A DNA stretch of 48,961 nt from Planctomycetaceae bacterium (lineage in GTDB: Bacteria > Planctomycetota > Planctomycetia > Planctomycetales > Planctomycetaceae). The notes below the pieces were generated by a model, which was not told where the DNA came from, made no database searches, and worked only from the letters and a program-made list of their open reading frames with translations. Position numbers and translations under genes: made by a program. Every line of letters starts with the position of its first letter. Position 1 is the first letter of the stretch. The DNA is taken from assembly GCA_021732785.1 (NCBI GenBank), contig JAKFUG010000044.1, positions 1 through 48,961 on the forward strand, written 5' to 3'. This document shows positions 19,201-42,377 of the stretch, in pieces.

Positions 19201-22200
19201 CCGCTTCCGTGACGTGGGAAAACCCACAGTCGTTCAAGACCGTGTGCCAGCGCGCACGCGGCAGCGTGGGGTAATCGGGTCGGCGATTCAGATCAGTGAA
19301 TCGCCACCAGCCTTCCAGCACTCCGAAGACGATGTCGAGAATGGGAATGGGGTCTTCATTCACGAACTCCACAAAGGCCAAGAGGCCACGTTGTGTCAGC
19401 AGCGTTCGCAGGTGTCGCAAGGTGACTTCGAGGTCGGCTGTCGCATGCAGCACCTGCGACGCCACCACCATGTCGAACGAGTGGGGTTCGTAGCCTTGTG
19501 CCAGCGGATCCTGCTCGAGATCGAGCTTGGAATATTTGATGAACGAGAAATCGCCGAAGCGCTCACGGGCCTTCATCAGAAAGGCATCGGAGAGATCGGT
19601 AAAGGTGTAATGCACCTCGCAGGGTAGGCGTGCCAGTTCGGGCAGCACAAACGACGTAAACGCCCCGGTGCCGGCACCGACTTCGAGAATTCGTAGCGGC
19701 CTTCCGACCGGCCATTGCCGGGCGACCGCGCAAACCGCCATCTGCAAACGGGTGTTGGTGAAGCGGAACCCCGGCGAATCCTGATAGTACCATTCGGCGA
19801 GGGACATATTGCCATGCGGGAACAGCAACTCGAGCGGTTCAGCCGTTCCAGCGAGAACCGGTCCCAGTTTTTCCCCGATCCGGTGGAGCAGGCTCAAATC
19901 GGGATAACAGTCCGGGTTCTGCCGCCACAATAACTGACTCTGCGGGATGGCATCGGGGTCTAAGCCACGCAGGAATTCATGCTCGTCACCGACTCGGCGG
20001 AGGGCACCGGCCGCTTCCAGAAACTGCACGTAACGGTTGGTTAACCGCGTATGTCGGGGAAGAATTCCCAACTGTGTACTGAGGCTCTCCGCCCGGAAAC
20101 GATTGCCAGGGCGGATGTCCAGACCCAACTCCGACCAGGCCCGCAGAATGAACTCGGTGCAGAGGGGCCACACCTGCTGAGAGATTTCAATCAGCCGTCG
20201 ATCGGTCGGCATCCCGGCAAATTGGTGACTGAAGCTTTGCTTGACCGACGCGGCCACATCCCCCAGCTCAATGGACACGCCGGAGGAATCATTCGCCGAT
20301 TCACGATTCTCCAGCGCCTGCGGCTTCCAGCGATACTCGAAGACCCAGTCGTTGACATCGACGGTTCGCTCGCCCGGCAAACCGTCCACGGCCTGGCAAC
20401 GGAGGCCGCTGATTTCCACGAGTGTCCGTCCCTGTCGGTCCAAAATCGTCAGATCGGCGATCATCTCCCGGCTGCTTTTCGACACCAGCCGGGCGTGCGC
20501 CAAAACCGATGCCGGCAGCGGAGCGAGCACCCGTAGCTGCTGGAATTCGACCGGCAGGTACATCCGTGCCGTGTCGACACCGACGTCTGTTTCGCGCGGA
20601 ATCAGGCAGATGACCGTTTGGAAACACGCATCCAGAATCGCGGGATGTATGTGATAACCGTTCAGGAACGGTTGCAGCGCGGCCGGCGCAGTGATGGATC
20701 CCAATGCTTCGCCGGTGCCCACCAGCGCTCCATCGAGACACTGAAAGCACGGCCCGTATTCGAGTCCCAGATCACGGAAATTGCGGTAGCAATCGTCGGC
20801 GGAAAGTGAGGTCGGCAGTCGCAGCCGCAGGCGATCCAGATCCTGCGTTTCCCACCGGGTCTCACCCGCTGTGGGACGGAACCGTCCGGTGACATGTTCC
20901 GTCCAGTCGGGACTGTTGCCGACGGGCCGGCTCACAATTTGAAATGACCCTTCAGCCGCATTGACAGCGAGCTGCAGGCACACCGTCTGATCCTGCCTTA
21001 GGAAGCAGGCTTTGTGAATCTGCACGTCGTCGAGGATACACGTCGCGGTGTCGAGAACGCTGCGAGCCGCGGTGGCCGCCATTTCCACGTAGGCCGCCGC
21101 TGGAACAACCGGGTATCCCTGCACGCAATGATCAGCCAGAAAACGTTGAATCCGCACATCGAGATGGTTTTCCCAAAGAGGGGACGCCCCCGGAATGCGG
21201 TAGCCAAGCAAGCGATGATAATGCTGTCCCACACGCAATTCGTGAGATTCGTTGGTCTCATTCCAGAAGCGTTCATGCTGCCACGCATAGCCGGGGAGTG
21301 TCAGTAATCGTCCCTCGGGTGCCAACGTGGACCAATTCAGAGATGCGCCCTTCACGAACAACGATCCCGCACATTTCAGCAGGGATTCCCGTTGATCGGC
21401 GTCGCGGCGCAAGGCATGCACCATCGACACTTTGGTGCCATGCGCGTCGGCGATTTCCATCACCGGGCCGAGCAACACGCCGTGAGCCGCGAGCTCGATA
21501 AACGTCTCGAAGCCGTCGTTCAAGAGGGCCGTGATCGCCTGTGAAAACTGCACGGTGTGACGGACGCTGTCCCACCAGTATTCGGGGGTCAACAGGGACC
21601 CCGTGACACGCTGGCCTTGCACTCCGGAATAGAACGGAATCGTTTCCTCGCGCAATGTCATGCCGGCGATCGACGCCTGCAAATCACCTTGTTGACCGTC
21701 GATGCACGGACTATGAAACGCGTATTCCACCTTCAAAAACGTGTGGAAGATGCTCCGTTGCTCGAGTTTGATCGCGATGGCTTCGAGGGCCTGCGCCGAC
21801 CCCGAGAGCGTCATGGTGCTGGGACTGTTCACGGCCGCCAGCGAGATTTCATGCTCGCGGCCGGCAATCAATGTGCGAACTTCTTCCAGCGGCAAAGCCA
21901 CGGCGAGCATCTTGCCGCGCGCTTCCGGCACATCCATGCACCGGCCACGGTGATAGATAATCCGGACCGCATCTTCGAGAGTGAGAATTCCGCTGACATA
22001 CGCCGCGGCGACTTCCCCCACGCTATGGCCGACGACAGCACTCGGCACGATTCCCCAGGTTTGCCATAAGCGGGCCAAAGCGACCTGCACGGCGAAAATC
22101 GCCGGTTGCGCGATCGCCGTTTGATCGAGCCGCGTGGTTGACGCTTCCTTGGCCAGTTCATCCAGGAGCGACCAATCGGCGTGTTTCGCGAGGAGCCGAT

Positions 22201-23983
22201 CGCACTCTTCCATCACCGTACGGAAGACGGGCTCGTGAGCCAACAGTTCCCGCACCATTCCGCAGAACTGTGTTCCCTGTCCCGAAAAAACGAAGACCAC
22301 CGGCGAAGGTTCGTCGCCGGCGATCCGTCCCTGAACGAGCTTTGCCGGGCTTCCGCCATCAGCGAAGGCGAGCAGCGTTTGGGCGGCCTCTTCCGGTGTC
22401 CGCGCCACCAGCGCCGCGCGATGGGCATGATGCGTGCGCCGCCGGGCGAGCGTGTAACACACATCGTTCCAGTCACCGGTCGCCGTCAGCCGCGCGGCTA
22501 ACTGCCGGGCCTGGGCTTTTAAGGCTTCCGGTGAACGTGCCGAAAGGGGAATCAATCGCGGCGGAGCCTCCTCGGCGGGAATCTTGAACGCCGCGGTGTG
22601 TCTATTCTGCGAGGCTTTGCCCGAATCCGTTGCCGGCGCTGCGGACAAAATCACATGGGCGTTCGTGCCACCGAATCCAAACGAATTGACGGCCGCGATG
22701 GCCGGCTCGGCGCGCTGCGGCCAGGGTGTTAATTCACGCGGAACTCGCAGTCCCAGTTCGTCGAAGGGAATGTCCGGATTCGGCGTATGAAAGTGCAGAT
22801 TGGCGGGGATCTGTCGGTGATAGACCGCGAGCGTGGCTTTAATCAGTCCCGCAATGCCCGCCGCAGATTCCAGGTGCCCGATATTCGTTTTGACCGAGCC
22901 AATCCACAGCCGATCATCGCTTTCACGTCCCTGGCCGAGCACGGTGCCGAGAGCGCGGCATTCGATCGGATCGCCCACGAGCGTGCCGGTCCCGTGGGCC
23001 TCGACATAACCCACATCTCGCGGCGCGATCCCGGCACGATGACAGGCGGCGCGCACCAGATCCGCCTGGGCGTGCTCGCTGGGCACGGTAATGCCGGTCG
23101 TATGACCATCCTGATTGCACGCCGTGCCGCGAATGACGCCATAAATGCGATCGTCGTCACGCTGCGCATCAGCCAGGGGTTTTAACATGACCAGTCCGGC
23201 GCCTTCGCTGCGAACGAATCCATTCGCGGACGCATCGAAGGCCTTGCAATGCGCATCGGGAGAAAGCATCGCGAGGCGACTCATTCCCACCCACGATTGC
23301 GGCCTCAACAACGCGTTGACGCCGCCGGCCAATGCCGACGTACACTCGCCATCCCACAGGCTTTGGCACGCCGCGTGAACAGCCACGAGCGCCGAGGAAC
23401 AGGCCGTGTCCACCGCGAAGCTCGGTCCGTGCAAGTCGAAGCTGTAGGAGATGCGATTCGCCGACAGGCTCATCGCCGCGCCGGTGTTGCTGTAGGTATC
23501 GGTGCGCAGCAAGCCGGCCGGCGTGCTGTCGAGATTGCCGTATTCGGTGTTCGAGAGCCCGATGAAAACGCCGCAGCGGCTCCCTTTCACCTGCGCGAGC
23601 GTGGCACCGGCGTCTTCAAAGGTTTCCCAGGCGACTTCCAGCAAGAGACGCTGCTGCGGGTCGATGCTGTTGGCTTCCCGCCGTGAGATGCCGAAGAAGT
23701 CGGGATCAAACTCGTCGATTCCTTCAATAAACCCGCCGCGTGCCGCGGCACTTCGCCCCGGCGTTCCGGGATGCGCATCGAAGTACATATCGGCGCTCCA
23801 GCGACTGCGCGGCAAGTCGCTGATGGCATCGACTTCGTCACAAAGCAGTTGCCAGAACCGCTCGGGACCGTGACCGCCGCCGGGAAAGCGGCAGCCAATT
23901 CCCACAATGGCAAGTGGCGACCGGAGAGCCGAATTGATGGTTGACAATTCGAATGCCGGACGTAAGGAAGGAGATGATGTCAT
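16202..23983 (-). CDS. Type I polyketide synthase, single module KS-AT-DH-cMT-ER-KR-ACP
   Basis: A 2593-residue one-module PKS. KS, about 24-450: C195 in DTACSS, H330 in EAHGTGT and H370 in KTNIGH. AT, 560-850: S654 in GHSVGE and YAFH 754-757, the AFH form expected for malonyl-CoA. DH, 920-1215: H952 in HCVQGYPVVP and D1118 in LDACFQ. C-methyltransferase, 1250-1600: SAM loop LEVGAGTG at 1433. A structural linker runs 1630-1850. ER, 1865-2185: GGVGLAAIQLA. KR, 2195-2440: GGLGGLG, S2340, Y2353, N2357, and LDD at 2296-2298, a B-type mark. ACP: S2515 in MGLDSL. A charged 30-residue tail could dock with a partner. All catalytic residues look intact, so it should add an alpha-methylated, fully reducible unit, possibly iteratively. 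It diverges from the NRPS gene and lacks a loading module and thioesterase. Confidence 0.92.
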   Translation of the reverse strand: MTSSPSLRPAFELSTINSALRSPLAIVGIGCRFPGGGHGPERFWQLLCDEVDAISDLPRSRWSADMYFDAHPGTPGRSAAARGGFIEGIDEFDPDFFGISRREANSIDPQQRLLLEVAWETFEDAGATLAQVKGSRCGVFIGLSNTEYGNLDSTPAGLLRTDTYSNTGAAMSLSANRISYSFDLHGPSFAVDTACSSALVAVHAACQSLWDGECTSALAGGVNALLRPQSWVGMSRLAMLSPDAHCKAFDASANGFVRSEGAGLVMLKPLADAQRDDDRIYGVIRGTACNQDGHTTGITVPSEHAQADLVRAACHRAGIAPRDVGYVEAHGTGTLVGDPIECRALGTVLGQGRESDDRLWIGSVKTNIGHLESAAGIAGLIKATLAVYHRQIPANLHFHTPNPDIPFDELGLRVPRELTPWPQRAEPAIAAVNSFGFGGTNAHVILSAAPATDSGKASQNRHTAAFKIPAEEAPPRLIPLSARSPEALKAQARQLAARLTATGDWNDVCYTLARRRTHHAHRAALVARTPEEAAQTLLAFADGGSPAKLVQGRIAGDEPSPVVFVFSGQGTQFCGMVRELLAHEPVFRTVMEECDRLLAKHADWSLLDELAKEASTTRLDQTAIAQPAIFAVQVALARLWQTWGIVPSAVVGHSVGEVAAAYVSGILTLEDAVRIIYHRGRCMDVPEARGKMLAVALPLEEVRTLIAGREHEISLAAVNSPSTMTLSGSAQALEAIAIKLEQRSIFHTFLKVEYAFHSPCIDGQQGDLQASIAGMTLREETIPFYSGVQGQRVTGSLLTPEYWWDSVRHTVQFSQAITALLNDGFETFIELAAHGVLLGPVMEIADAHGTKVSMVHALRRDADQRESLLKCAGSLFVKGASLNWSTLAPEGRLLTLPGYAWQHERFWNETNESHELRVGQHYHRLLGYRIPGASPLWENHLDVRIQRFLADHCVQGYPVVPAAAYVEMAATAARSVLDTATCILDDVQIHKACFLRQDQTVCLQLAVNAAEGSFQIVSRPVGNSPDWTEHVTGRFRPTAGETRWETQDLDRLRLRLPTSLSADDCYRNFRDLGLEYGPCFQCLDGALVGTGEALGSITAPAALQPFLNGYHIHPAILDACFQTVICLIPRETDVGVDTARMYLPVEFQQLRVLAPLPASVLAHARLVSKSSREMIADLTILDRQGRTLVEISGLRCQAVDGLPGERTVDVNDWVFEYRWKPQALENRESANDSSGVSIELGDVAASVKQSFSHQFAGMPTDRRLIEISQQVWPLCTEFILRAWSELGLDIRPGNRFRAESLSTQLGILPRHTRLTNRYVQFLEAAGALRRVGDEHEFLRGLDPDAIPQSQLLWRQNPDCYPDLSLLHRIGEKLGPVLAGTAEPLELLFPHGNMSLAEWYYQDSPGFRFTNTRLQMAVCAVARQWPVGRPLRILEVGAGTGAFTSFVLPELARLPCEVHYTFTDLSDAFLMKARERFGDFSFIKYSKLDLEQDPLAQGYEPHSFDMVVASQVLHATADLEVTLRHLRTLLTQRGLLAFVEFVNEDPIPILDIVFGVLEGWWRFTDLNRRPDYPTLPRARWHTVLNDCGFSHVTEAAGNFTGSICAVLMAQSNPQHEPAASRPVALPETELPRVSTTPPATGRWLIFCDRGGLGRRLADKLRARGAAVQTVVAGKTNRRVSDDEFELIPADKPGMQWLLADLHTAGNPPCGVVHLWSCDDILDETDSLESVAAGLAPGCLTVTQLLQGLAESAAPTPPRAWLITRGAQTAGDGPAMPQPLQGSLWGLGRVAMNELRNLRPILVDLSPEPSDGEFEALVAEFLANSHEEEVALRGASRYVHRLIRTAGRRPAPRQLGADGNTTQPRFRLETSRQGTFDQLVLRGQPPAELPPGSVEIAIEASALNFSDVMKALGLYPGLPDGPIPMGLEFAGRITRIAPGVQGWQIADAVMGLAPFSFASYVITDSRYIAKLPTEMTFEQAATLPVAYLTAYYALHSLGKIRRGERVLIHAATGGVGLAAIQLAQVAGAEVFATAGTPEKRDFLRWMGIPHVMDSRTLSFADEVLAATNGEGVDLILNSLSGQAIQKSLSLLRDYGRFLEIGKRDIYADSRLAMRPFRRNLSFHAIDLDGAMRQRPEIVGEVFAEMAELVQRQQISVIPYRPFRLSNISAAFRYMAQARHIGKVVITHSEPELEVLAATKSPYRYRADVTYLITGGLGGLGLAIAKGMVRDGARHIVLMQRSGPSHEATAELDELRGTGAEMIVEQADVTQPSELAAVLARIAASVFPLAGVMHLAMVLDDGLLVTLDAERFERVWSPKVLGAWNLHLQTRTLPLDFFVNFSSISSLLGMEGQGNYAAANAFLDSLATFRRAQNLPALTINWGYLGEVGWVARHPEIAQRFESLGMQGIRPHEVLSMMGRFINDGSVQVGVVGSGANEFVRLVAGQSLRFEDLGADDGQAGGKKREFGSGRAALMAVEPEQRRGVLETLLKEQVSRVLGTTPDRLDVTCPLTDMGLDSLVAVELKNWTEGELGLQLPTVELLRGPSVAQLVDLLAKQLEGDAVVPVVAPPVNVDELSDAQVDEMLASIEGEAATVN

Positions 23984-24066: not shown

Positions 24067-24248
24067 ACAACAAACCAATGAGGCCCGAAGCGACTGTTCT
24101 GTGGCAGGAATTGCGGACAGGAGTGGCCGATTTCGAGGAGCACCGGTCTGCAATTCTTGCTGTACACAGTAAGCAGCATGGTAGCCGTGCGAAATGACAT
24201 TTGTCGCCATCAACTTATTTTTTTGTGGAGTGAATTGCCGCATGCCGC

Positions 24249-24278
24249 TTGTTTCCGATTCTGGGCATGCACTATGGT
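24249..24278 (+). promoter_or_regulatory. Weak sigma-70-like promoter candidate for the NRPS arm
   Basis: TTGTTT (24249-24254), 18-nt spacer, TATGGT (24273-24278), ending about 74 nt before the preferred NRPS start. The boxes are imperfect, and the second overlaps an alternative ATG at 24274, so this is only a suggestion. Confidence 0.2.
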
Positions 24279-24351
24279 ACTAGCGGGCCAGGCGACTCCC
24301 GATTCGATTGCCCTGGGACAGATCGAGTCCCTTCGCTCAAAGCGATTCGGC

Positions 24352-27300
24352 ATGAATGAACCCGCTCCGAACATTGCCCCGCAAGTCCAGGAGCCGCTCG
24401 GCGTCCCGCCGCAAAAGTCATTGACGCCTGCGGAAAAGCGCGCCGCACTGGCCCGCCATTTCCAGCAAAAAGCCCCTGCGAAGCCCGCAGCGGCACCCAC
24501 TGCTCCGCGACTCGTTCCGCAGCCCGAGCAGTGGTCGCAACCGTTTCCGCTCACCGATGTTCAACAGGCGTACTGGTTGGGACAAACGGGGCTGTTCGGG
24601 CTTGGTAATGTCGCGACGCACATGTACTTCGAGCTCGATGTCGACGGTCTGGACCTCGAGCGATTGATCGGAATCTTCCAGCGGCTGATCGATTATCACC
24701 CGATGCTGCGGGCTATCGTCGCCGCGGACGGAACGCAGCGCATCCTGGATGAGGTCCCTCCGTATCACCCCACAAAAGTGGATCTTCGCGGCAAATCATC
24801 CACGGGCATCCAGGCGGAACTGTTGCGTATCCGCGCGGAATTGTCGCATCAGGTGATTGCGGCCGATCACTGGCCGTCGTTCGATTGTTGGGCGAGTCTC
24901 CGCGATCCGCAGATGACGCGGCTGCATATCAGCTTCAGCCTGTTGTTCCTCGATGCGTGGAGCATCCGCCTGTTGATGGCCCAGTGGGCATTGCTGTACC
25001 AGTTTCCGGCGATCGAGTTGCCCGCATGGCAGATCTCGTTTCGCGATGTGGTGCAATTTGACGCCGCGCGGCGAACGACGGCGAACTATGAGCGTGCGCG
25101 GCAGTATTGGCTCAACCGTTTGGAGAGCATTCCTCCCGCACCCGAACTGCCATTCGCCTGCAATCCGGAAACGATCGACAAACCGCAATTTCGGCGACGC
25201 GCAAGTCGGCTCGATGGCATGCGGTGGACGCGGCTCAAACAGATCGGGACACAGCGCGGGCTCACGCCGTCGGCGATTTTACTGGCGGCGTTCAGCGACG
25301 TGCTGCGGACTTGGAGCCGCAGTTCGCGCTTCACCATTAATATGACCTTGTTCAATCGCCCGGCCGTGCATCCGCAAATCGACGATCTCGTCGGGGACTT
25401 CACATCTCTCACGTTGCTCACTGCGGATGTCCGTGCCGATGAATCATTTTTCGATCTGGCCGAACGGCTGCAGACACAGTTGAGCACCGATCTCGATCAC
25501 ACGGCTTTCGGCGGCGTGGAAGTCTTGCGGGAATTGTGGAAGCGGCACGAACGCAATCCGGCCACGATCATGCCGGTCGTGTTCACCAGCGTCGTGGGCC
25601 GGGCTTCCATCATGGATGAGCTTCCGTTTGGGGAAGTGGTCTACGGCGTGTCGCAAACGCCGCAGGTGTGGCTCGATCATCAGATTTTTGAACGAAATGG
25701 CGCTCTCGTTTACAATTGGGACTATGTCGAGCCGCTTTTCCCGCCCGGCATGATCGACGCGATCTTTGACGCTTACACACAGTTTCTGCGGCAGCTTTCC
25801 GAAGAACCGGAGCATTGGCACGTACGACAGCGCTCCCATCTGCCGGACGCCGATCTTGAACAACAGCGGGCCATCAACGCCACCGAGAAATCATTTCGGG
25901 ATGTCCGGCTCGAAGCGTTGTTTTTTGAGCAAGCCGACCAACACCCGCAAGATCCGGCAGTCATCTCGGCGAATCGCCGTTTGACCTACGCCGAGCTACG
26001 ACACGCGGCAATGCACGTGGCCGTCCGACTCACGGCACAACACGTCGAGAACAACAGTCTGGTTGCCGTCGTGATGGAGAAGGGCTGGGAGCAAGTCGTC
26101 GCGGTGTTGGGAATTCTCAGGGCGGGTGCCGCCTATCTGCCGATCGACCCCCGCTTGCCGACGGAGCGGATTCGATACCTGCTCGAAAACGGCGAAGTCC
26201 GCGTCGCCGTCACGCAAGGGGGTTTCACCGACGCTTCGTTCTGGCCAGACGGGATCGCGATCGTCACGATTGACGATTCCTTTCCGACCGTGCCTTGCGG
26301 CGAGCCCGTCCCCAATCCCGTAGCGACCGCTGATCTGGCCTATGTGATCTACACTTCCGGTTCGACCGGCCAGCCCAAAGGGGTCGCGATGACCCACCGC
26401 GCCGTGGCCAACACCGTGTTCGATGTCAACGACCGGTTCAACATCACCCGGAACGATCGCGTGCTCGCGCTCTCCGCATTGAACTTTGATCTTTCGGTGT
26501 ATGATATTTTCGGCGTATTGGCCGCGGGGGGCACAATCGTCATCCCCGAAGCCGACGCGGAGCGCAATCCGGACCGCTGGTGGGAATGGATCCGGGACGA
26601 GCGAATCACGGTCTGGAACACGGTTCCCGCATTGATGGAAATGCTCATCGAATCGCACAGCCATGAATCGGCGGTGCCTTGCGAACTCCGCAAGGTTCTG
26701 CTGAGCGGGGACTGGATTCCGGTCTCGCTTCCATCGCGCATCCGACGGCTGTGTCCCCACGCCGAAGTCATCAGCCTCGGCGGCGCAACAGAGGCCGCAA
26801 TCTGGTCCATTTTTCATCGCGTGGATTCCCTTCCGGAAAACACGGCAAGCGTTCCCTACGGCCGCCCGCTCGCGAACCAGACGTGGGCCGTACTCAACTC
26901 GGACGGTCGTGCGGTTCCCGCCTGGGTGCCGGGCGAACTTTACATCGGGGGATGTGGCCTCGCGACGGGGTACTGGAAAGACCCGGAAAAATCCGCGGCA
27001 CGATTTATCACGGAGAAAGCATCGGGGCACCGTCTTTATCGAACGGGCGATTGGGGCCGATCTCTGCCGAATGGCGACATCGAATTTTTGGGCCGCGAAG
27101 ATACGCAGGTCAAAATTCTCGGGCATCGAATCGAGCTGGGGGAGATCGAAGCGGCCTTGATGGACCATCCCGACATTCGCGCTGCGATCGTGTGTGCCGT
27201 CGGTGAGACTCGCGGCAAGCGACGCCTGGTCGCGTGGATGACTCCGCGCCATGAAAATCAACTGCTCGATGTTGATCCGGGCAACACTCTGGCCGAGTTT

Positions 27301-28503
27301 CTCGCCGGGAAAGTGCCGCCGTACATGATTCCGTCGGCCTTCACATGGCGGGTGGAGTTCCCGCTCACGTCGAATGGCAAGATTGACCGTCAGGCACTCG
27401 AGCGACTCGCGATCAACGTGGCGTCGTCAACCAACGAGGCGCTGTCGGCTCCCGCGGACATGGACGGCGTGACGCGCGAAGTCTGGGATGTGATTGCCGT
27501 CGAAATGGGGCTCCCGCAACTGGGAGCCGCGGACAATCTGATGCACGTGGGCGCGAGTTCCATCGACATGATTCGACTGGCGAATCGCTTCGAGGAGCAG
27601 TTTGGCTTCCGTCCACACCTGCCCGATTTTTTTCGCGACCCGTCCGTGAATGGTCTGGCAGCGATCTTGCAGGCTCATCGAAATCAATCGCCGGAGACAC
27701 AGACTCCAACGTCAAATGCAACGCCGCGATCGGCCGACGTGATTCTCGATCCACACCAGCGTGCAACGTTCAAGCAGCAGCAACACGGTCTGCGACGGTT
27801 TTCCGACTCGACAGTACAAACCGTACTGGTTCCGATTCCCCTCGACGCCGCACGGCAAGCCGAATTCCGCCGCCGCAGTCATCGCCAGTTCGCTGCCCGT
27901 TCATTGACACTCGCCAGCGTGTCGGAACTGCTCGGGTGTCTGCAACAGTTTTCGAGCGCGGGCCACCCGAAGTACCGCTATGGTTCCGCGGGCGGTGCTT
28001 ATCCCGTGCAGACCTATCTCCATCTGAAGGAAAACGCCGTCACGGGCCTCGCATCGGGACTCTATTATTATGATCCCGTCCAACATGGATTGATCGCCGT
28101 CGCCCCGGGGATTCCGCTCGATCGCGACATCCATCAGGCGCACATCAACCAGCCCGTCTTCGACCAGGCAACTTTTTCGGTATTCTTGATTGCCGTTCCG
28201 GCCGCGATTGAGCCGTTGTATGGCGAATTGAGCCTGCAATTCATGACGCTGGAAGCCGGCGCAATGACGCAATTGCTGGAGGAGACCGCGGGGTCGCTGC
28301 AGATTGGATTGTGTCAAATCGGTTGGCTCGACTTTGAACGCATCCGTCCTCTGTTCGGTCTCGAACCCGGTTGCGGACTGTTGCACAGTCTCGTGGGAGG
28401 GCCCGTTCCAGAAGACGTAGAACTCGTTCCGATCGGTCCCGCGGAGTTGCCGGACGAACTGCGCACGCCGGGGGAAAACGCATTCCAGGAAGGTGAACTG
28501 TGA
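24352..28503 (+). CDS. Non-ribosomal peptide synthetase Cy-A(Cys)-PCP-Ox
   Basis: 1383 residues. The heterocyclisation domain (about 60-490) has FPLTDVQQAYWLG at 65 and PVVFTS (T412) and SQTPQVWLDHQ (D442), the two residues held to be catalytic in Cy domains. The DxxxxDxxS motif reads SLLFLDAWS (196-204), so its first Asp is Ser. The adenylation domain (505-1015) has YTSGSTGQPKG at 667. Its pocket reads D713 L714 Y717 N756 L783 S785 L809 I817 W818 K1010, the known cysteine code DLYNLSLIWK. PCP: S1070 in GASSID. The C-terminal 1150-1365 is a SagB-type FMN oxidase. It should load Cys, condense it with an upstream acyl chain, form thiazoline and oxidise it to thiazole. ATG 24352 is chosen because homology begins soon after; ATG 24274 is possible. 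The stop overlaps the next gene by 4 nt. Confidence 0.9.
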   Translation: MNEPAPNIAPQVQEPLGVPPQKSLTPAEKRAALARHFQQKAPAKPAAAPTAPRLVPQPEQWSQPFPLTDVQQAYWLGQTGLFGLGNVATHMYFELDVDGLDLERLIGIFQRLIDYHPMLRAIVAADGTQRILDEVPPYHPTKVDLRGKSSTGIQAELLRIRAELSHQVIAADHWPSFDCWASLRDPQMTRLHISFSLLFLDAWSIRLLMAQWALLYQFPAIELPAWQISFRDVVQFDAARRTTANYERARQYWLNRLESIPPAPELPFACNPETIDKPQFRRRASRLDGMRWTRLKQIGTQRGLTPSAILLAAFSDVLRTWSRSSRFTINMTLFNRPAVHPQIDDLVGDFTSLTLLTADVRADESFFDLAERLQTQLSTDLDHTAFGGVEVLRELWKRHERNPATIMPVVFTSVVGRASIMDELPFGEVVYGVSQTPQVWLDHQIFERNGALVYNWDYVEPLFPPGMIDAIFDAYTQFLRQLSEEPEHWHVRQRSHLPDADLEQQRAINATEKSFRDVRLEALFFEQADQHPQDPAVISANRRLTYAELRHAAMHVAVRLTAQHVENNSLVAVVMEKGWEQVVAVLGILRAGAAYLPIDPRLPTERIRYLLENGEVRVAVTQGGFTDASFWPDGIAIVTIDDSFPTVPCGEPVPNPVATADLAYVIYTSGSTGQPKGVAMTHRAVANTVFDVNDRFNITRNDRVLALSALNFDLSVYDIFGVLAAGGTIVIPEADAERNPDRWWEWIRDERITVWNTVPALMEMLIESHSHESAVPCELRKVLLSGDWIPVSLPSRIRRLCPHAEVISLGGATEAAIWSIFHRVDSLPENTASVPYGRPLANQTWAVLNSDGRAVPAWVPGELYIGGCGLATGYWKDPEKSAARFITEKASGHRLYRTGDWGRSLPNGDIEFLGREDTQVKILGHRIELGEIEAALMDHPDIRAAIVCAVGETRGKRRLVAWMTPRHENQLLDVDPGNTLAEFLAGKVPPYMIPSAFTWRVEFPLTSNGKIDRQALERLAINVASSTNEALSAPADMDGVTREVWDVIAVEMGLPQLGAADNLMHVGASSIDMIRLANRFEEQFGFRPHLPDFFRDPSVNGLAAILQAHRNQSPETQTPTSNATPRSADVILDPHQRATFKQQQHGLRRFSDSTVQTVLVPIPLDAARQAEFRRRSHRQFAARSLTLASVSELLGCLQQFSSAGHPKYRYGSAGGAYPVQTYLHLKENAVTGLASGLYYYDPVQHGLIAVAPGIPLDRDIHQAHINQPVFDQATFSVFLIAVPAAIEPLYGELSLQFMTLEAGAMTQLLEETAGSLQIGLCQIGWLDFERIRPLFGLEPGCGLLHSLVGGPVPEDVELVPIGPAELPDELRTPGENAFQEGEL

Positions 28504-31418
28504 GCAATGCCGTCGCGACTCTGCTCGAACAAGCGCGCTCCGCCGGCGTGGAATTGTGGATGGAAGGCGACCGGTTGCGCTACCGTGCGCCGAAAGAAGC
28601 CCGCGTTGATGCCCTCCTTTCCGATGTAAAACAACACCGCGACGCCGTCATACTCGCGCTCCAGGAAGCTGAATCACAGACCGCGCTCCGGACTGACTCA
28701 AATGTCGAACCGCATCCGCCGGTCATCTTGGATACCGCACCTCTCGGCAGACCGGCCCGCCCGCGACGAAGCAAGACCAAGTTTTCGTTGTTCGGCGATG
28801 AGCGGCTCACCGATGAGCTGCCGCAACCGGACGAATCGTGTCATCCCTACGTCCGGTTTGTCAGCCCTTATAAGGGATTTCTGTTTTCTCAGTTGGAGAT
28901 GGAAAAGCGCTTTGTACGAGGCCGCGGTTGCCTGCTGTACGATGAGCACGGACAGGAATATCTCGATTTCATCGCCCAGTTCGGAGCGCTACCGTTTGGC
29001 CTGAATCCGCCCGAAATCTGGCAGGCGCTCGAAGCCGTGCGTGCCGAAGAAGTTCCGAGTTTCGTCAACCCCTCGTTAATGGATGCCGCGGGCGCATTGG
29101 CCGAGCGGTTGCTCGCGATGGCTCCGCCCGGCATGCGTTACGTCACGTTTGCCAACAGCGGTGCCGAGGCGGTGGAAGTGGCCATCAAGCTGTGCCGGGC
29201 GGCGACGCGGCGCATCGGCGTTCTCGCGACCCGCAACGGGTTTCACGGCCTCACGCTGGGGGCGATGTCGGCGACGGGGAACCGTGTTTATCATCAGGAC
29301 TTCGGCGCGCCGGTCCCCGGTTTCGAGCACATTCCCTTCGGTGACCTCGCTGCTCTTCAATCCGCCCTCGCCGCACGGCCGGGTTATTACGCGGCCTTTG
29401 TCGTCGAGCCGATTCAGGGCGAAGGTGGGATTGTCGAAGCGCCCGCCGGTTACCTCGCCGCCGCACAGGAAGCGTGTCGCGCTGCCGGCACACTATTCAT
29501 CGTTGATGAAGTGCAAACGGGGTTGGGACGCACCGGCGATCTCTTCGCCTGCAACCGGGATGACTTCACGCCGGATGTGATGACGCTGGCGAAAGCGCTC
29601 GGCGGCGGGTTAATGCCGATCGGTGCCTGTCTCTATGGAAAAGCGGCGTATTCCGCCGAGTTCGATTTGCGGCACTCCTCAACGTTCGCGGGCAATACGC
29701 TGGCGTGCCGCGCGGGACTGGCTTCACTGGACTTGCTCGAACGGGACGACCGCGCGCTGATCCGTTCGGTCGCGACTGTCGGCGCCGAATTAAAACAGCA
29801 GTTGCTCGAACTGCAACGAGAGTTTCCCGAGTTCATTCAATCGGTGCGGGGACGCGGCTTTCTGCTCGGCGTGGAACTGGAACTGGAGCCGCTGCGTCAT
29901 GAAACGAATCTTCTGGGCTTTCTTCAGCAACAGAACTTCGTCATCCATTTGCTAGTGGGATATCTGCTGAATGTGGAGGGCGTTCGCGTTGCCCCGTCAT
30001 TCTCCAGTGGCACGGTGATTCGGATTGAACCGCCGTTGATCGCCGGCCGCGCGGAGTGCCAACGATTCCTGTCCGCCCTGCGACGTACGCTGCAGGTATT
30101 GCGACGACGGGATTCGGCGCAGCTGACATCGTTTCTGGCCACCGAAAAGGGAGAAGCGAGTCGCGTCACGGCAGCCGCGCGACCGCCCCGTTCGGAAGCG
30201 CGGGTTGAACTGACACCGCCGATGACGAGAATTGACGCACGCCCCGAAGACGGCCGGTTTGCGTTTATCGTTCATCTTCTCTCGCCGCGGGATCTCGCCG
30301 AGCTCGACCCGAGTCTGGAATCATTGAGTGATGAACGGTTGCTGACGTTAAAGCAGCGCATGATTCGCTTTCTGGACCCGTTCCCGATTGGTTCCTTTGC
30401 CGCCGAGTCGGCCTTGGGCAGTCGCGCAGTCGGCGAATTGATTTTGATTCCCTACACCGCTGAGGAACTGCTCGAACTGCCGGGCGATCAGGCGATCAAC
30501 GAGATCAGTCTCGCCGTGGAGATTGCCCGGGATCGGGGAGCGCGTGTCGTTGGTCTGGGCGGATTTACGTCGATTGTCACGCACGGCGGATTGAGTCTCC
30601 CCTCGGAACGCATGCCGCAGATCACATCCGGCAATTCCTTCACCGTCGTGGCTGGTCGGCGTGCGGTGCAGCAAGCCAGCCGGGCTCGCGGACTGGAGTT
30701 GGCGAAGGCCACGGTCGCGGTGGTTGGGGCGACGGGCATGATCGGACGGGCGCTGGCATTCATGCTTGCCGAGGAAGTGGGCCGCTTGATTCTCGTCGGC
30801 AATCCGACGCGGGCCCAATTCAGCACGACGCGCTTGCAAGGTGTCGCCAATGAAATTGCCGACTCCGTGCGGCAAACCGCGGCGACCGGGCGGGCGCCGT
30901 CGCGATTCACTGTCGCGGACCAGCTTGCAACCCGCGGAACGGCCCCGTTGACCGCCGCGGAATTGCAACTGGAAGGTGACGGGCCGCTGGCCGTCACGAC
31001 ATCGGCGGCAGCGGCCTTGCCACTCGCGGACATCGTTATCACGGCGACCAACTCCCCGGAAGCGTTTATCGAGAGTCAGCATTTGAAGCGGAACGCGATC
31101 ATTTGCGATCTTTCGCGCCCCTTCAACATTTGTGCCAACCTCGCGGTGGAGCGCCCGGACGTACAAGTCGTGGAAGGGGGACTGGTGCGCCTGCCGGGCA
31201 ATCCCGATTTTCGCTTTCTCGGCGGCAAAGACCGTGGCGTGATCGTGGCCTGCATCGCGGAGACGATTCTCCTGGCACTCGAACATCAACCGGCGTTTGA
31301 CGGACTGTGCGGGTCGCTGCAAATCCCGACCATTCTCGAATTGGAACGGCTGGGGCAGCGTCACGGCTTCGAAGTCATGCTGGAATCCGGTGCCTGTCCC
31401 ACCGTGGGTGCCCATTGA
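28500..31418 (+). CDS. Docking domain-aminotransferase-AAR-like reductase fusion
   Basis: A 972-residue three-part protein. Residues 1-56 form a TubC-type N-terminal docking domain (AGVELWMEGDRLRYRAPKE), which binds the tail of an upstream megasynthase. Residues 110-535 are a class III PLP aminotransferase: D336 in IVDEVQTG, K365 in LAKALGGG, and NSGAEAVEVAIK at 219. Residues 585-965 resemble cyanobacterial acyl-ACP reductase (AAR): VGLGGFTSIV at 684, TSGNSFT at 709, ATVAVVGATGMIGRA at 737, VEGGLV at 891 and RHGFEVM at 954. The position aligned with AAR's acylating Cys is A866, and C869 lies three residues on. GTG 28500 overlaps the NRPS stop (GTGA). Inferred job: reduce the carrier-bound thioester to an aldehyde and transaminate it to an amine. 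The order of the two reactions and activity of the reductase are unproven. Confidence 0.8.
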   Translation: MSNAVATLLEQARSAGVELWMEGDRLRYRAPKEARVDALLSDVKQHRDAVILALQEAESQTALRTDSNVEPHPPVILDTAPLGRPARPRRSKTKFSLFGDERLTDELPQPDESCHPYVRFVSPYKGFLFSQLEMEKRFVRGRGCLLYDEHGQEYLDFIAQFGALPFGLNPPEIWQALEAVRAEEVPSFVNPSLMDAAGALAERLLAMAPPGMRYVTFANSGAEAVEVAIKLCRAATRRIGVLATRNGFHGLTLGAMSATGNRVYHQDFGAPVPGFEHIPFGDLAALQSALAARPGYYAAFVVEPIQGEGGIVEAPAGYLAAAQEACRAAGTLFIVDEVQTGLGRTGDLFACNRDDFTPDVMTLAKALGGGLMPIGACLYGKAAYSAEFDLRHSSTFAGNTLACRAGLASLDLLERDDRALIRSVATVGAELKQQLLELQREFPEFIQSVRGRGFLLGVELELEPLRHETNLLGFLQQQNFVIHLLVGYLLNVEGVRVAPSFSSGTVIRIEPPLIAGRAECQRFLSALRRTLQVLRRRDSAQLTSFLATEKGEASRVTAAARPPRSEARVELTPPMTRIDARPEDGRFAFIVHLLSPRDLAELDPSLESLSDERLLTLKQRMIRFLDPFPIGSFAAESALGSRAVGELILIPYTAEELLELPGDQAINEISLAVEIARDRGARVVGLGGFTSIVTHGGLSLPSERMPQITSGNSFTVVAGRRAVQQASRARGLELAKATVAVVGATGMIGRALAFMLAEEVGRLILVGNPTRAQFSTTRLQGVANEIADSVRQTAATGRAPSRFTVADQLATRGTAPLTAAELQLEGDGPLAVTTSAAAALPLADIVITATNSPEAFIESQHLKRNAIICDLSRPFNICANLAVERPDVQVVEGGLVRLPGNPDFRFLGGKDRGVIVACIAETILLALEHQPAFDGLCGSLQIPTILELERLGQRHGFEVMLESGACPTVGAH

Positions 31419-31438
31419 AATTCCTTGTCGGAACCGTT

Positions 31439-32191
31439 GTGACCGAAGCCGCTCCCACTCCGCCGATGCCAGCGCCAATACCGCCACGGAGCGAGTTTCT
31501 GCGCCTCGACAACGTCTCGCGGGAATTTTCTCTCGAAGGAAGCATCATTGCCGCGCTGCGGGATGTGACGCTGGACATCGTGCAAGGCGAAGTGCTGATC
31601 GTGCTGGGACCGAGTGGTTCCGGCAAAACGACGATGCTCAATCTCATCGGCGGTATCGATCGCGCCACCCATGGCAACCTGTGGTATCGGGGGGAGGATC
31701 TGGCTCAGGCGGATCGACGCCAACTCGCCCGCTATCGTCGCGATGCGGTCGGTTTTGTGTTCCAGTTCTACAACCTGATTCCCGACTTGACTGCGGCCGA
31801 GAATGTGGAAGTGGCGGCCGAACTTTGTGCCGCGCCGCTGTCCACATCGGCCGTTCTGGAGCAGGTCGGCCTGTCGGCTCGGCGGGATCATTTTCCCGCA
31901 CAGCTTTCCGGCGGCGAGCAACAGCGCGTGGCTATCGCCCGTGCATTGGTCAAAAATCCCGCGGCTCTGTTGTGCGACGAACCGACCGGCGCGCTGGACT
32001 TCGAGACCGGCAAGCAGGTACTACGGCTGCTCGTGGATTTGAGCCGGACTCTCGGGAAGACGGTGATCATCGTGACTCACAACGGTGCAATTGCCCCCAT
32101 CGGCGATCGAATTGTCCGGATGCGCTCCGGTCTGGTTGCCGAGCTCCAGGTCAATCCGCGTCCGAGCGATCCCGCTCAAATCAGTTGGTAG
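31439..32191 (+). CDS. ABC transporter ATPase, LolD/MacB type
   Basis: About 250 residues with Walker A GPSGSGKTT, the Q-loop in FQFYNLIPDLTAAENV, signature LSGGEQQRVAIARAL, Walker B LLCDEPTGALD and the switch His in VTHN. The pattern belongs to the LolD/FtsE/MacB group that works with FtsX-type permeases, and the permease starts 4 nt after the stop. I place the start at GTG 31439; a TTG at 31415 overlapping the preceding stop (TTGA) and an ATG at 31466 are alternatives, since no start has a strong ribosome-binding site. It energises export, probably of the cluster product. Confidence 0.85.
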   Translation: MTEAAPTPPMPAPIPPRSEFLRLDNVSREFSLEGSIIAALRDVTLDIVQGEVLIVLGPSGSGKTTMLNLIGGIDRATHGNLWYRGEDLAQADRRQLARYRRDAVGFVFQFYNLIPDLTAAENVEVAAELCAAPLSTSAVLEQVGLSARRDHFPAQLSGGEQQRVAIARALVKNPAALLCDEPTGALDFETGKQVLRLLVDLSRTLGKTVIIVTHNGAIAPIGDRIVRMRSGLVAELQVNPRPSDPAQISW

Positions 32192-32194
32192 CGT

Positions 32195-34612
32195 ATGCGG
32201 GACGAAATGCCGGTCAATGCGCTGCGCCCTCGACATTCGATGTTGAATCGTCGATTGCGGCGACTGGTTTATCGCTCCTGGCCGCGGCTGGTCGCGATCA
32301 GCAGCATCATGGCCGTCGGCATTGCCTGCTTCGTGGGTCTGGCGTCCACGTTTTCCAATCTCGTTCGCGGCCAGGACGAATACTATGCCCAGTGTCGGAT
32401 GGCCGATTTCTCGGTGGAAATGACGCGTCTGCCCCTGGCCGATCTTCCGCTGTTAGCGCGGATTCCCGGCGTCATTGAACTGCAGCCGCGGATCATGGCT
32501 TCGGCGCTGGTGGACCTGCCCGATTCCAGTCAATCCATCAACGGCATCGTCATCTCGCTGCCCGAGCGACCCGAGCCCATGATCAACGGGGTGTTGATTC
32601 GCCGTGGCGGCTATTTTTCTTCCGACCGCCGCGACCAGGTCCTCGTGAATGATACTTTCGCGCGGCGGCACGGTTTGAATCCCGGCGACCAGATTCATCT
32701 GGTCCTGAATGGGCAGCATCGCACTTTTGTGATTGTCGGGATGGCGAGCAGCAGCGAGTTCATGTACCTCGTTTCGCCCGGCACGCTCGCACCCGATCCG
32801 GACCATTTCGGCGCGTTTTATCTCAAACGGAGCCAGATGGAGGAACTGCTCGATTTGAAAGGGGCCTGCAATCAATTGATCGGAACGCTGGCACCGGAAT
32901 TTCGCGCGCGGCCGCAGGCGGTGCTTCGCGATGTGGAATCCCGCTGCGATCCCTATGGCGTGCTGACCGTCACCGCGCGAGACGACATGCCGTCGCACCG
33001 GTATTTGACGGACGATATCACCGGCCTGCGGATTTTCACCTTGATTCTGCCGACGCTGTTCCTCACGACCGGGGCCATCGTCATGAACGTGCTGATGACG
33101 CGCGTCACCGAGCAGGAACGGACGCAGATCGGGACATTGAAAGCCCTCGGTTACGGCGACTGGCCGCTGTTTTTGTATTACATCAAGCTCGCCGTCATCG
33201 TCGGTGTGATCGGGGGCATTGCGGGTTGTGCGGCGGGGGCGGTCGTCGCGCATATCCTGACCAATCTCTTTCACGAGTTCTTCGAATATCCCACTCTGCG
33301 GGCGGATTTTTATCCTCTGTTACACGGGCTGGGATTGGGCCTTAGCGTGTTGGTGGCGGTGCTGGGAACATTGCATGGCGCGAGTCGTGTATTACAACTG
33401 AATCCCTCGGAGGCCATGCGTCCCGTCGCGCCGGTCCGCAGCACGGCCAACTGGCTGTCGAAGTCTCCGGTGATCTGGTCGCGCCTCGGCACATCGGACC
33501 GCATGGTTTTGCGCGGGATGACGCGCAACTGGCAACGAACCGTCACCGCCGTGTTTGCCGTCGCCGTGGGAACCACGTTGCTGCTCTGTGCCAACATCGT
33601 CGATGAGTCCCTGCCGTATCTGCTCGAATTTCAATACCGCCTGGTGCAACGCAGTCATGTCGATGTGACGTTGAATGATCCCCAGGGCCCGCAGGTGTTG
33701 GACGCTGTCCGGCGAATTTCCAGCGTCGAATATGCCGAGCCGATCCTGGATGTCGACTGCACGTTGACGCACGGCGCTATTCAGAAACGCTGCCGCATTA
33801 CCGGCCTGGTGAACGGAGCCCGACTGACGATTCCGCGCGACGCCCGCGGCCATGACGTCGCCGTACCGGCGACCGGCCTGCTCATGAGCCGCAAGCTCGC
33901 GGAAATGTTGCAGGTTCGCACCGGTGAAACGGTCACGTTGACCACCATCAAAGGGGTCCGCCGACCGCACCGCGTGCAGGTCATGCAGATTGCGGAAAGT
34001 TATCTCGGCCTGCCGGTGTATGCCGATCAGAATTTCCTGCACACGTTGATGGATGACGCCGCGTCGGTCACTCGTTTGCAACTGCTGACGAAGCCGGGAA
34101 TCGCGCAGGAGCAGGCGTTTCATCGGGAACTAAAACGGATGCCGGCCTTCAAGAGCGTCGCCGTTCGCAACGATCAAATGCGGATCCTGCGCGACTCGCT
34201 CATTGCCACGTTCCGTCTCGAAACGAAAGTGTTGATTCTGTTTGCCGGCGTGAGCTATTTCTCCAGCGTGCTCAATTGCGTGTTGATCAGTCTCGCGGAA
34301 CGACGGCGGGAGATCGCCACGCTCCACGTCTTGGGGTCCGATCCGTGGCGCGTCGGCGGTTTGTTTCTCCGCGAGATCGCCTGGGGCAATGCCCTGGGGA
34401 CGCTGCTGGGACTTCCCTGCGGCTACTTCTTCGGTTGGGTGATATTGAGCGTGCATGACACCGAACTCTACCGCATCCCGTTCGCTCACCCGCCGGTGGC
34501 CTGGGGGAAGACCATTGGGTTATCGCTCGTGTTCAGCGCGGCGAGTTATGTTGTTGTCCAGTGGGCGATTTTGAAGATGGATTGGCGCGATGTCCTCAAC
34601 GTTCGGGAATAG
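32195..34612 (+). CDS. ABC transporter permease, FtsX/MacB-like, duplicated
   Basis: An 805-residue permease of the FtsX/MacB/LolE superfamily built as two repeats. Repeat one has an N-terminal helix (WPRLVAISSIMAVGIACFVG), a large extracytoplasmic domain, and a three-helix block starting at LILPTLFLTTGAIVMNVLM. Repeat two starts with RTVTAVFAVAVGTTLLLCAN and ends in a three-helix block (TKVLILFAGVSYFSSVLNCV onward). These pumps move hydrophobic compounds or lipoproteins from the outer leaflet and need an adaptor, which fits the HlyD gene of the divergent arm. Its last 23 nt overlap the thioesterase gene, so both belong to one transcript. It could also give self-protection. Confidence 0.85.
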   Translation: MRDEMPVNALRPRHSMLNRRLRRLVYRSWPRLVAISSIMAVGIACFVGLASTFSNLVRGQDEYYAQCRMADFSVEMTRLPLADLPLLARIPGVIELQPRIMASALVDLPDSSQSINGIVISLPERPEPMINGVLIRRGGYFSSDRRDQVLVNDTFARRHGLNPGDQIHLVLNGQHRTFVIVGMASSSEFMYLVSPGTLAPDPDHFGAFYLKRSQMEELLDLKGACNQLIGTLAPEFRARPQAVLRDVESRCDPYGVLTVTARDDMPSHRYLTDDITGLRIFTLILPTLFLTTGAIVMNVLMTRVTEQERTQIGTLKALGYGDWPLFLYYIKLAVIVGVIGGIAGCAAGAVVAHILTNLFHEFFEYPTLRADFYPLLHGLGLGLSVLVAVLGTLHGASRVLQLNPSEAMRPVAPVRSTANWLSKSPVIWSRLGTSDRMVLRGMTRNWQRTVTAVFAVAVGTTLLLCANIVDESLPYLLEFQYRLVQRSHVDVTLNDPQGPQVLDAVRRISSVEYAEPILDVDCTLTHGAIQKRCRITGLVNGARLTIPRDARGHDVAVPATGLLMSRKLAEMLQVRTGETVTLTTIKGVRRPHRVQVMQIAESYLGLPVYADQNFLHTLMDDAASVTRLQLLTKPGIAQEQAFHRELKRMPAFKSVAVRNDQMRILRDSLIATFRLETKVLILFAGVSYFSSVLNCVLISLAERRREIATLHVLGSDPWRVGGLFLREIAWGNALGTLLGLPCGYFFGWVILSVHDTELYRIPFAHPPVAWGKTIGLSLVFSAASYVVVQWAILKMDWRDVLNVRE

Positions 34613-37894: not shown

Positions 37895-39949
37895 GTGTGT
37901 GGTATCGGTGGCGTGATCGAACTCGACGGAAGCCGGCTGCCACCGGGCGAACGCCTCGCACAGATGGAGCGGATGATCCGGCTGCTGGGACATCGCGGAC
38001 CGGACGAAGCCGGGTACATGCTCGATCCACGCGTGGCCTTGTGTGCGACGCGGTTGAAAATCAACGATCTCGCATTAGGACAGCAACCGTTCACCGACGA
38101 GACGCAACGCTTCTGGGTGGTCTACAACGGAGAAATCTACAACCACTTCGAATTGCGGCGGGAACTCGAACAGCGCGGGTATCGCTTCCGTACGCAGTGC
38201 GACACCGAAGTGGCGCTTCGCGCATGGCAAACGTGGGGGAAAGAGGCACCGGCGCGCTTTGAAGGCGGCTTCGCTTTTGCGGTCTACGACCGCCGCCACC
38301 GCACGGTCACGCTCGTTCGCGATCGCTTCGGAAAGCGGCCCCTCTTTTACTGTCAGACCTCGCAGCGGATTCTGTTCGGGTCCGAAATGAAGGCGTTTGC
38401 GGCGTGCCGCGATCATGCCTGCGTCTGGGACACACCGCGGTTGGCGTCCTTGTTTACGCACTGGACATCGATCGGGGCGGACACGCCCTTTCACGGAGTC
38501 AAACAGGTTCCGGCCGGATCGATATTGGAAATCACGACGAGCGGCACATCGCTGGATTGCTATGCGGAGTTTCCCGTCGCGCGTGTCGTGGCCGAGGAGA
38601 CCAGCGATGCCGCCGCGCACGTGCGAGAGTTGTTACAACGGAGCGTGGACCTGCGTCTGCGCAGCGATGTCGAAGTCGGCATTCAGCTCAGCGGAGGACT
38701 CGATTCGACGATCCTGGCACACCTGGTAAAAAATCGGCAGGCTGAGCGGATGCAATCCTTCGCGATTGCCTTCGATGAGCCGGAATTTGACGAGACCGCT
38801 TCACAGAATCTCGCCGCGAATCGGTTCGGACTGACGCACCATCGACTCGCTGTTTCTTCGACGGACATTGCGGCTGCGTTTCCTGCGGCGCTATGGCATG
38901 CCGAGGTTCCGCAGTTTCGCACGGCGTTCGTGCCGATGTTTCTGCTTTCCCGCCGGATTCGCGAATGCGGGATCAAAGTGGTGCTGAGCGGCGAAGGGGC
39001 CGATGAAGTCTTTTTTGGCTACGATCTGTTCAAGGAATCGCGGTTGCGCGAAGCGTGGCCGTTGTTGTCTGCCGGGCAACGCCGGGACTCCATCCGCCGG
39101 TTATATCCTTATCTCCCGTTGTTTTCCGATGCCAACGTCGGCGCACTGGAGGCCGTTCTGGCCCGATCCGCAATCGCGCCGGGTAACCGGACGTTCTCAC
39201 ACGCGCTGCGGTTCGACAACGGTCGCTTTGCCGCCCGCCTGCTGCAAGCGGAGCCGTCGTCATCCACACCGCTCGACGATGTGCTGGCTGCCGTGCCTGG
39301 CTTCGATGCCCTGCCCCTGCTGCGACGGGCGCAGTGGCTGGAATTTCACACGCTGTTGCAGGGGTATCTGCTGTCCTCGCAAGGAGACCGGATGGCGTTC
39401 GCCCACGGTGTTGAACCGCGTTGCCCGTTTCTCAGCCCCGCCCTTGTGGCCCACGCGGCGACGCTGCCGGTTGACACCCATCTTTCAGCAGACGGTGTCG
39501 AAAAGCGACTGCTCAAAGAAGCTTTCGGCCCCTCGTTGCCCCGTGAAATTGTAGCCCGACCGAAACAGCCGTACCGCGCACCCGGTACAGCGTGCTTCTT
39601 TGACCGCAAGCAACAAGGCACCGCGCGATTCGTCGACTGGGTGGAAGAGCGGCTGTCACCACATGCGCTCGAAGAGATGGCCCCGATCCAGACAACCCAC
39701 GCGCTGCGATTCATCGACAAGATCCGCAGCACTCCTCCCACGCAGATCAGCGCTCGAGAAGACCAAGCGTTTCTGCTGCTGTTGTCGCTCTCGGAACTCG
39801 ACCGGCAGTATGTTCGCGGCAAGGGTGAAGACTTTGTGGGGCCGTCTCCGCCATTGAAGGTGGCAACAATCTTCCCCGATGACGGTGATTCGTCCGTCGA
39901 TGCGGTCGTCACTCCACCAGCGTTCGGTCGTCTGCGAGGGACGCCATGA
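37895..39949 (+). CDS. AsnB-type glutamine amidotransferase
   Basis: A 684-residue two-domain protein. It starts with a class II glutaminase whose nucleophile Cys follows the initiator (GTG TGT; MCGIGGVIEL), with HRGPDEAGY, VYNGEIYNHFELR and GTEVALR-like CDTEVALRAW blocks. The synthetase domain has SGGLDS at 266-271 and VVLSGEGADEVFFGYD. A GTG start at 37895 is required by the N-terminal Cys and supported by AGGAAAGGA just upstream; the frame is open further upstream but overlaps the AT gene. Ammonia from Gln would amidate an ATP-activated carboxylate. In polyketide pathways such proteins amidate malonyl-ACP to a malonamyl starter (tetracycline OxyD and glutarimide clusters). The stop overlaps the GNAT start (ATGA). 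Confidence 0.85.
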   Translation: MCGIGGVIELDGSRLPPGERLAQMERMIRLLGHRGPDEAGYMLDPRVALCATRLKINDLALGQQPFTDETQRFWVVYNGEIYNHFELRRELEQRGYRFRTQCDTEVALRAWQTWGKEAPARFEGGFAFAVYDRRHRTVTLVRDRFGKRPLFYCQTSQRILFGSEMKAFAACRDHACVWDTPRLASLFTHWTSIGADTPFHGVKQVPAGSILEITTSGTSLDCYAEFPVARVVAEETSDAAAHVRELLQRSVDLRLRSDVEVGIQLSGGLDSTILAHLVKNRQAERMQSFAIAFDEPEFDETASQNLAANRFGLTHHRLAVSSTDIAAAFPAALWHAEVPQFRTAFVPMFLLSRRIRECGIKVVLSGEGADEVFFGYDLFKESRLREAWPLLSAGQRRDSIRRLYPYLPLFSDANVGALEAVLARSAIAPGNRTFSHALRFDNGRFAARLLQAEPSSSTPLDDVLAAVPGFDALPLLRRAQWLEFHTLLQGYLLSSQGDRMAFAHGVEPRCPFLSPALVAHAATLPVDTHLSADGVEKRLLKEAFGPSLPREIVARPKQPYRAPGTACFFDRKQQGTARFVDWVEERLSPHALEEMAPIQTTHALRFIDKIRSTPPTQISAREDQAFLLLLSLSELDRQYVRGKGEDFVGPSPPLKVATIFPDDGDSSVDAVVTPPAFGRLRGTP

Positions 39950-42245: not shown

Positions 42246-42377
42246 CGAACGCGTTTCTCCGGATTCGAGAATTGGATGGTAGGCCGTCCGTTCACGGAGT
42301 ATAGTCCGGTGGGTACAGTCGAGGCGGGCCTGTCGTTTTGTGTGTCGGAAACGGTCTGACACAACGTGGGGTGGTGT

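Follow-up and report, generated by a model that had tools for sequence, protein, structure and literature searches.

The candidate release protein and its locus

The stretch of DNA analysed here, 48,961 nucleotides of contig JAKFUG010000044.1 from a Planctomycetaceae bacterium (assembly GCA_021732785.1) and called the window in the following, encodes on its forward strand (28500..31418) a protein of 972 residues. It joins a TubC_N docking domain, a class III aminotransferase (AT) and a thioester reductase (TR) of the acyl-acyl carrier protein (ACP) reductase (AAR) type in a single chain. Its GTG start at 28500 overlaps the stop of a nonribosomal peptide synthetase (NRPS) gene that ends at 28503. 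An earlier note, written from the sequence alone, had described a 972-residue protein of this composition whose start overlaps the NRPS stop, and had suggested that it releases the assembly-line product as a primary amine. We recovered each structural element that the note had named, with slightly different boundaries.

The docking domain, which had been placed at residues 1-56, lies at residues 5-56 (28512..28667, forward strand) and is of the β-hairpin kind, with a TubC_N score of 43.2 bits against a Pfam cut-off of 26. It is followed on the same strand by the AT domain at residues 138-531 (28911..30092) and by the TR domain at about residues 583-964 (30246..31391). D336 (29505..29507) and K365 (29592..29594), both singled out by the earlier note, are presumably, by their family roles, the Asp at the pyridine nitrogen of pyridoxal phosphate (PLP) and the Lys of the Schiff base (compare K340 of TamH, a tambjamine enzyme discussed below). 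Both are invariant in an alignment of 31 full-length sequences that includes that of the window. The same is true of C918 (31251..31253) and of G743 and G746 in the nucleotide-binding stretch G743-ATG-MI-G749 (30726..30746), a GxxGxxG motif as described for TamH, while G749 is kept in at least 90% of the rows. The column of C918 is also invariant across 38 TR-domain sequences, and in alignment it falls on the Cys of ACFAE, an AAR motif. Its equivalents, C294 of the cyanobacterial AAR (SeAAR) and C887 of TamH, are the acyl-transfer cysteines according to the accessible text of the TamH paper (PMC9594044). The likeness of the C-terminal domain to AAR, as first noticed, thus extends to the catalytic Cys, and the predicted fold is that of AAR with this residue in place. 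In NCBIfam, the protein scores 486 bits with the PigE equivalog NF053554 and misses its curated cut-off of 850; its order is AT-TR and not TR-AT. The family that we take to stand for the integrated R domain of NRPSs of the short-chain dehydrogenase/reductase type, PF07993, is absent among the eight Pfam families found in the AT-TR protein and the five found in the NRPS at E ≤ 1, in a search whose HMMER filters drop most weak matches.

The upstream NRPS (24157..28503, forward strand) has the order Cy-A-PCP-Ox, that is condensation, adenylation, peptidyl carrier protein (PCP) and nitroreductase-type oxidase (Ox), and probably starts further downstream than the TTG at 24157. Its condensation domain carries FPLTDVQQAYW, which we take to be the start motif of the cyclising (Cy) type. 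The adenylation domain is probably specific for Cys, since its code, read by eye as DLYNLSLIWK, is presumably a Cys code. What weighs against the assignment as a thiazole module is the Cy core motif, which reads SxxxxDxxS with Ser replacing the first Asp; in relatives, this first position is S, N or D. Neither a thioesterase nor a reductase domain was found in the NRPS (Pfam, E ≤ 1), so that release must come from outside. On the reverse strand, a single-module reducing polyketide synthase (PKS) of the order KS-AT-DH-MT-ER-KR-ACP (AT being the acyltransferase here) is encoded at 16202..23983 and carries a docking tail that looks helical by eye.

A conserved tail and a β-hairpin docking domain

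The earlier note had called for a survey of TubC_N, class III AT and AAR architectures and their gene neighbours. The survey yields five loci from two phyla, each with an NRPS and a GNAT-type acyltransferase: the window, L024 (genome G084), L040, L041 and L113. In all of them, an NRPS of the same architecture stands directly upstream of the TubC_N-AT-TR gene. L113, which comes from a different phylum, holds PKS domains and NRPS within a single open reading frame (ORF). Four of the cassettes, those of the window, G084, L040 and L113, have PKS domains close by, and the contig of L041 stops inside the NRPS. By Pfam, TubC_N exceeds the cut-off in the window, L024, L040 and L113, and phmmer gives 29 bits for it in L041; a phmmer query made of nothing but the window's docking domain retrieves it in L040 and L041 only, L024 and L113 being identified through Pfam. 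Among 9347 ORFs of 162 sequences, a docking-domain model matched at E ≤ 1 only the five cassette proteins and a second copy of the one from the window. The model was built from those five proteins, which match it by construction, and only the absence of others is informative.

Directly ahead of the AT-TR gene, the NRPSs of four of the five loci end in EGE[LIV]: QEGEL in the window (28486..28500, forward strand), EEGEI in L040, EEGEV in L041 and EEGEL in L113, with a divergent WESGVIE in L024. The linkers that precede these five tails are, by eye, dissimilar to one another. We counted gene-like ORFs of at least 150 residues, picked greedily by length, with L001, L009 and L010 omitted as copies and some other loci overlapping. 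On this count, a C-terminal GE followed by one hydrophobic residue is found in six of 1254 ORFs: the four cassette NRPSs and two ORFs, apparently for one kind of protein, that end in RGEM. We regard QEGEL as a putative short linear motif (SLiM) for the docking domain.

On the receiving side, the structure model places helices at residues 3-14, 37-45 and 47-64 and strands at 18-22 and 25-29, which is the expected helix-strand-strand-helix-helix succession, and the second strand reads R25-L-R-Y28-R29. A reference is offered by the Kj12B/Kj12C pair of rhabdopeptide biosynthesis, in which, as far as the source is accessible, the tail binds through its last five residues only: R24 bridges a Glu, Y27 packs on a Gly and E28 bridges an Arg, with a numbering that shifts by one within the source (PMC6195595). 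The window's docking domain aligns with Kj12C without gaps, and therefore R25, Y28 and R29 come to stand at the three contact positions. As R29 takes the place of E28, it would face a Glu of the tail. From the same portion of that work, a Lys at position 28 is reported to improve the binding of a tail in which Glu replaces Arg (PMC6195595). Apart from the exchange of one charge pair, the QEGEL tail and the predicted β-hairpin are thus compatible with the rule that was solved for docking between rhabdopeptide synthetases. The type of junction has precedent too, since a review, in the part available, reports oxidases that end in SLiMs and thioester reductases that begin with β-hairpin docking domains (PMC9113145). 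One report lowers the weight that the tail can carry in this reading: for FR-901375 biosynthesis, the docking domain is described as needed and the SLiM as dispensable, as far as the excerpted source goes (PMC13324335).

The third constant member of the cassette is the GNAT-type protein (39946..41013, forward strand), encoded 8.5 kb downstream of the AT-TR gene. Its homologues in the other cassette loci are 26-34% identical to it. A search of genome contigs gave 497 relatives of the AT-TR protein, of which the best 80 were examined; among these, the GNAT occurs in exactly three loci, and these are the ones with the docking domain. Neither NCBIfam nor a sequence search of the PDB provided a name for the window's protein. 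A similar GNAT also adjoins fusions of the reverse order, TR-AT, in L025 and L026.

A proposed release mechanism and its alternatives

The AT-TR protein is probably a reductive-amination release enzyme of the TamH kind that acts in trans, docked to the NRPS by the SLiM/β-hairpin pair, and that frees a 2-alkylthiazole first as the aldehyde and then as the amine, a proposal drawn from sequence and predicted fold. The reducing PKS would build the acyl chain, to which the NRPS would add Cys, cyclise it through Cy and oxidise the ring to a thiazole through Ox. As the NRPS lacks a built-in release domain, the chain would remain on its PCP. The QEGEL tail would then add a strand to the β-hairpin of the docking domain, the acyl group would pass from the phosphopantetheine arm to C918 of the AAR-type domain, and NAD(P)H would reduce it to an aldehyde. 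The fused PLP transaminase would convert this aldehyde to a primary amine, which the GNAT probably N-acylates. The release route suggested in the earlier note, from an AAR-type reductase to the fused AT on a docked protein, is the best reading, carried by the catalytic residues, the fold, the five loci and the matching tail; its claim to novelty went too far, as discussed below.

The most serious competitor holds that the AT-TR protein acts on the acyl-ACP of the PKS or on a fatty acyl-ACP and makes a fatty amine as in TamH, the NRPS product being a separate matter. Neighbouring NRPSs or PKSs are found for six of the best 80 relatives (L040, L041, L113, L102 and L112, and L108 by Pfam), and the other 74 show no such match in the stretch examined, many of them being cut by contig ends. 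Moreover, two actinobacterial homologues (L102, L112) lie directly downstream of PKSs. Against it stands that the EGE[LIV] tail is found on the NRPS and the β-hairpin domain on the AT-TR protein, while the PKS tail of the window looks helical. The AT-TR frame, whose start in the window overlaps the NRPS stop, also overlaps or abuts the NRPS frame in G084, L040 and L041. We consider this alternative unlikely.

Less probable still is that the AAR-fold domain performs other chemistry on a carrier-bound chain, for example the formation of a terminal amide as suspected for the carmabin TAD, with the AT acting elsewhere. By sequence, the TR domain is far nearer to PigE (1e-19) and AAR (3e-15) than to TAD (0.028), and a profile search ranks them alike (2.4e-53, 1.2e-37 and 2.5e-10). 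Furthermore, the domain order with a fused transaminase is that of TamH, for which the accessible text reports the aldehyde and then the amine (PMC9594044).

The least probable of the three assigns release to the PF00975 thioesterase encoded in the window at 34590-35384 and leaves the AT-TR protein to act on a different intermediate. With phmmer, no thioesterase homologous to it was found in the 10-54 kb stretches of the other four cassette loci, where NRPS, AT-TR and GNAT are present. Stand-alone thioesterases of this kind often serve in editing only.

Neighbouring genes

Downstream of the putative release protein, an ABC transporter ATPase (31307..32191, forward strand) shares its first bases with the AT-TR gene; its match starts near 31508, and therefore its true start is probably later than 31307. 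An FtsX-type ABC permease follows (32195..34612, forward strand). Between 35879 and 39949, an amidotransferase-like gene (WbuX), a discrete FabD-like acyltransferase and an asparagine-synthase-like gene stand in series and may form a further section of the pathway or a separate cluster. A B12-binding radical SAM protein resembling C-methyltransferases (42366-44057) adjoins an acyl-CoA dehydrogenase-like gene (41064-42245). On the reverse strand lie genes at 13160-14641 and 14693-16075, an FMO/Baeyer-Villiger-type flavin monooxygenase and, between it and the PKS, an HlyD/RND-type adaptor; they are candidates for tailoring and export.

The wider family of AT-TR fusions

AT precedes TR in one ORF in 79 of the best 80 relatives, contig ends truncating some of them, and L081 has the two in adjacent ORFs. 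Many of them belong to the Bacillota (among L042-L119, e.g. L066:8546-11242) and show no PKS or NRPS match in the stretch examined. The few neighbours scanned at three such loci (L066, L064, L042) were uninformative; LegC-type sugar aminotransferases are matched, below the cut-off, by the ORF that follows in L066 and by one close to the fusion in L042. L035 and L119 encode an ACP fused in front of AT-TR and, next to the fusion, a DIP2-like acyl-AMP ligase. On a Leisingera plasmid (L038:13896-18104), one of five that match, AT-TR continues into a C-terminal adenylation domain in one frame of 1403 residues. Rhodobacterales plasmids (L036, L037, L039) carry AT-TR genes without NRPS or PKS matches; in L036 and L037, a gene for a VPLPA-CTERM protein adjoins, in L037 amid exopolysaccharide and exosortase genes, while L039 is unannotated. 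A distant group of the window's own phylum (L152-L160; G443, G549, G520, G425, G576, G535, G412, G485, G450) has an AT match in pieces, and adenylation-type matches adjoin several of its members. Planctomycetes also hold a PigE-like TR-AT clade (L025-L029, L031-L034, L124, L127, L129, L130, L132-L136).

A tree of the TR domains was built from 116 rows, two of them duplicates: 94 AT-TR, 18 TR-AT, three without AT and the window. Sequences with a TR span of at most 250 residues or summed TR bits of at most 40 had been excluded, and TamH is outside the tree. The 18 reverse-order planctomycete proteins form one clade with a support of 100. A single change accounts for the five proteins with the docking domain, at a support of 73 and with long branches among them. 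At the limits used, TR matches occur in 12 of 99, 28 of 397 and 13 of 392 genomes, the source genome counted. Among the matches whose surroundings were read, which leave aside most further matches of the 397-genome scan, the G470 match and L145 (G430), the NRPS cassette is seen in the window and G084 only. A scan of viral contigs returned no relatives of the AT-TR protein.

Taken together, these settings suggest to us that the recruiting element may be all that changes around the fusion. It is an even call whether the fusion of the TamH type serves as a portable device for release by reductive amination, recruited by a β-hairpin/SLiM pair on thiazole-type NRPSs (five loci, two phyla), by helical-looking PKS tails (L102, L112, actinobacteria), by an ACP in cis with a DIP2-like ligase (L035, L119) or by an adenylation domain in cis (L038), and whether its product here is an undescribed class of N-acylated 2-alkyl-4-(aminomethyl)thiazoles.

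Should the proposal hold, one docked protein would suffice to release an assembly-line product as a primary amine, a useful reaction. An enzyme of this kind brings along a docking tag that can be transferred, and it could therefore be combined with other NRPSs; the pair predicted here consists of five tail residues and a docking domain of some 56 residues. It would also predict a product type for an under-studied phylum, with a GNAT tied to the product.

Comparison with known systems

The earlier note knew of no described pathway with this arrangement, which is too strong, as TamH and PigE are both fusions of AT and AAR-type domains, the former in the same order and reconstituted in vitro. TamH, of tambjamine YP1 biosynthesis in Pseudoalteromonas tunicata, resembles the window's protein in having a class III transaminase followed by an AAR-type TR with GxxGxxG in one chain, a comparison made by published description and not by sequence. 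In both, the catalytic Cys lies 54 residues from the end (941-887 and 972-918). The accessible text reports that TamH turned an ACP-bound C12 acyl group into the aldehyde and, with L-Glu and NADH, into the amine, and that C12-CoA gave none (PMC9594044). It differs in being served by TamA, an ANL-ACP protein, with a fatty acid, and neither a docking domain nor an NRPS thiazole module is described for it in that text (PMC9594044).

Among proteins of solved structure, PigE (PDB 4ppm) is nearest in sequence to both catalytic domains; it differs in that TR comes first and AT second; for this prodigiosin enzyme, the part of the source at hand gives evidence for thioester reduction and transamination (PMC8341465). 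Because of these two precedents, the proposed chemistry is already known for this kind of enzyme in other pathways, and the surprise is limited, as the class is not new. SeAAR (PDB 6jzy) is a free-standing enzyme of the alkane pathway, in contrast to the window's TR, which is fused to a transaminase in one ORF. The carmabin TAD (PDB 9e50, 9e4s), as far as its description is available, is part of an adenylation-domain protein (residues near 1926-2286) and looks built in, not docked.

For the junction, the TubC, EpoB, Kj12 and enacyloxin pairs provide the same kind of domain, to which a fitting tail exists in the window. The β-hairpin/SLiM pairs covered by the accessible portions of the sources feed C or Cy domains (PMC9113145, PMC13324335, PMC6195595), and the available part of the review does not name a transaminase-AAR fusion (PMC9113145). 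An AT-AAR fusion of this kind is likewise not described in the accessible portions of the solanimycin, embedded-PLP-domain, Swf and aldehyde-review papers. Among the papers listed by text searches of the open-access literature, with subscription journals mostly outside it, we found no description of a β-hairpin-docked AT-TR protein that serves a thiazole-type NRPS. What looks new in comparison with all these systems is one element: the way in which a reductive-amination enzyme of the TamH type would be brought to a thiazole-type NRPS, through a tail and a hairpin that pair with each other, in five loci and two phyla.
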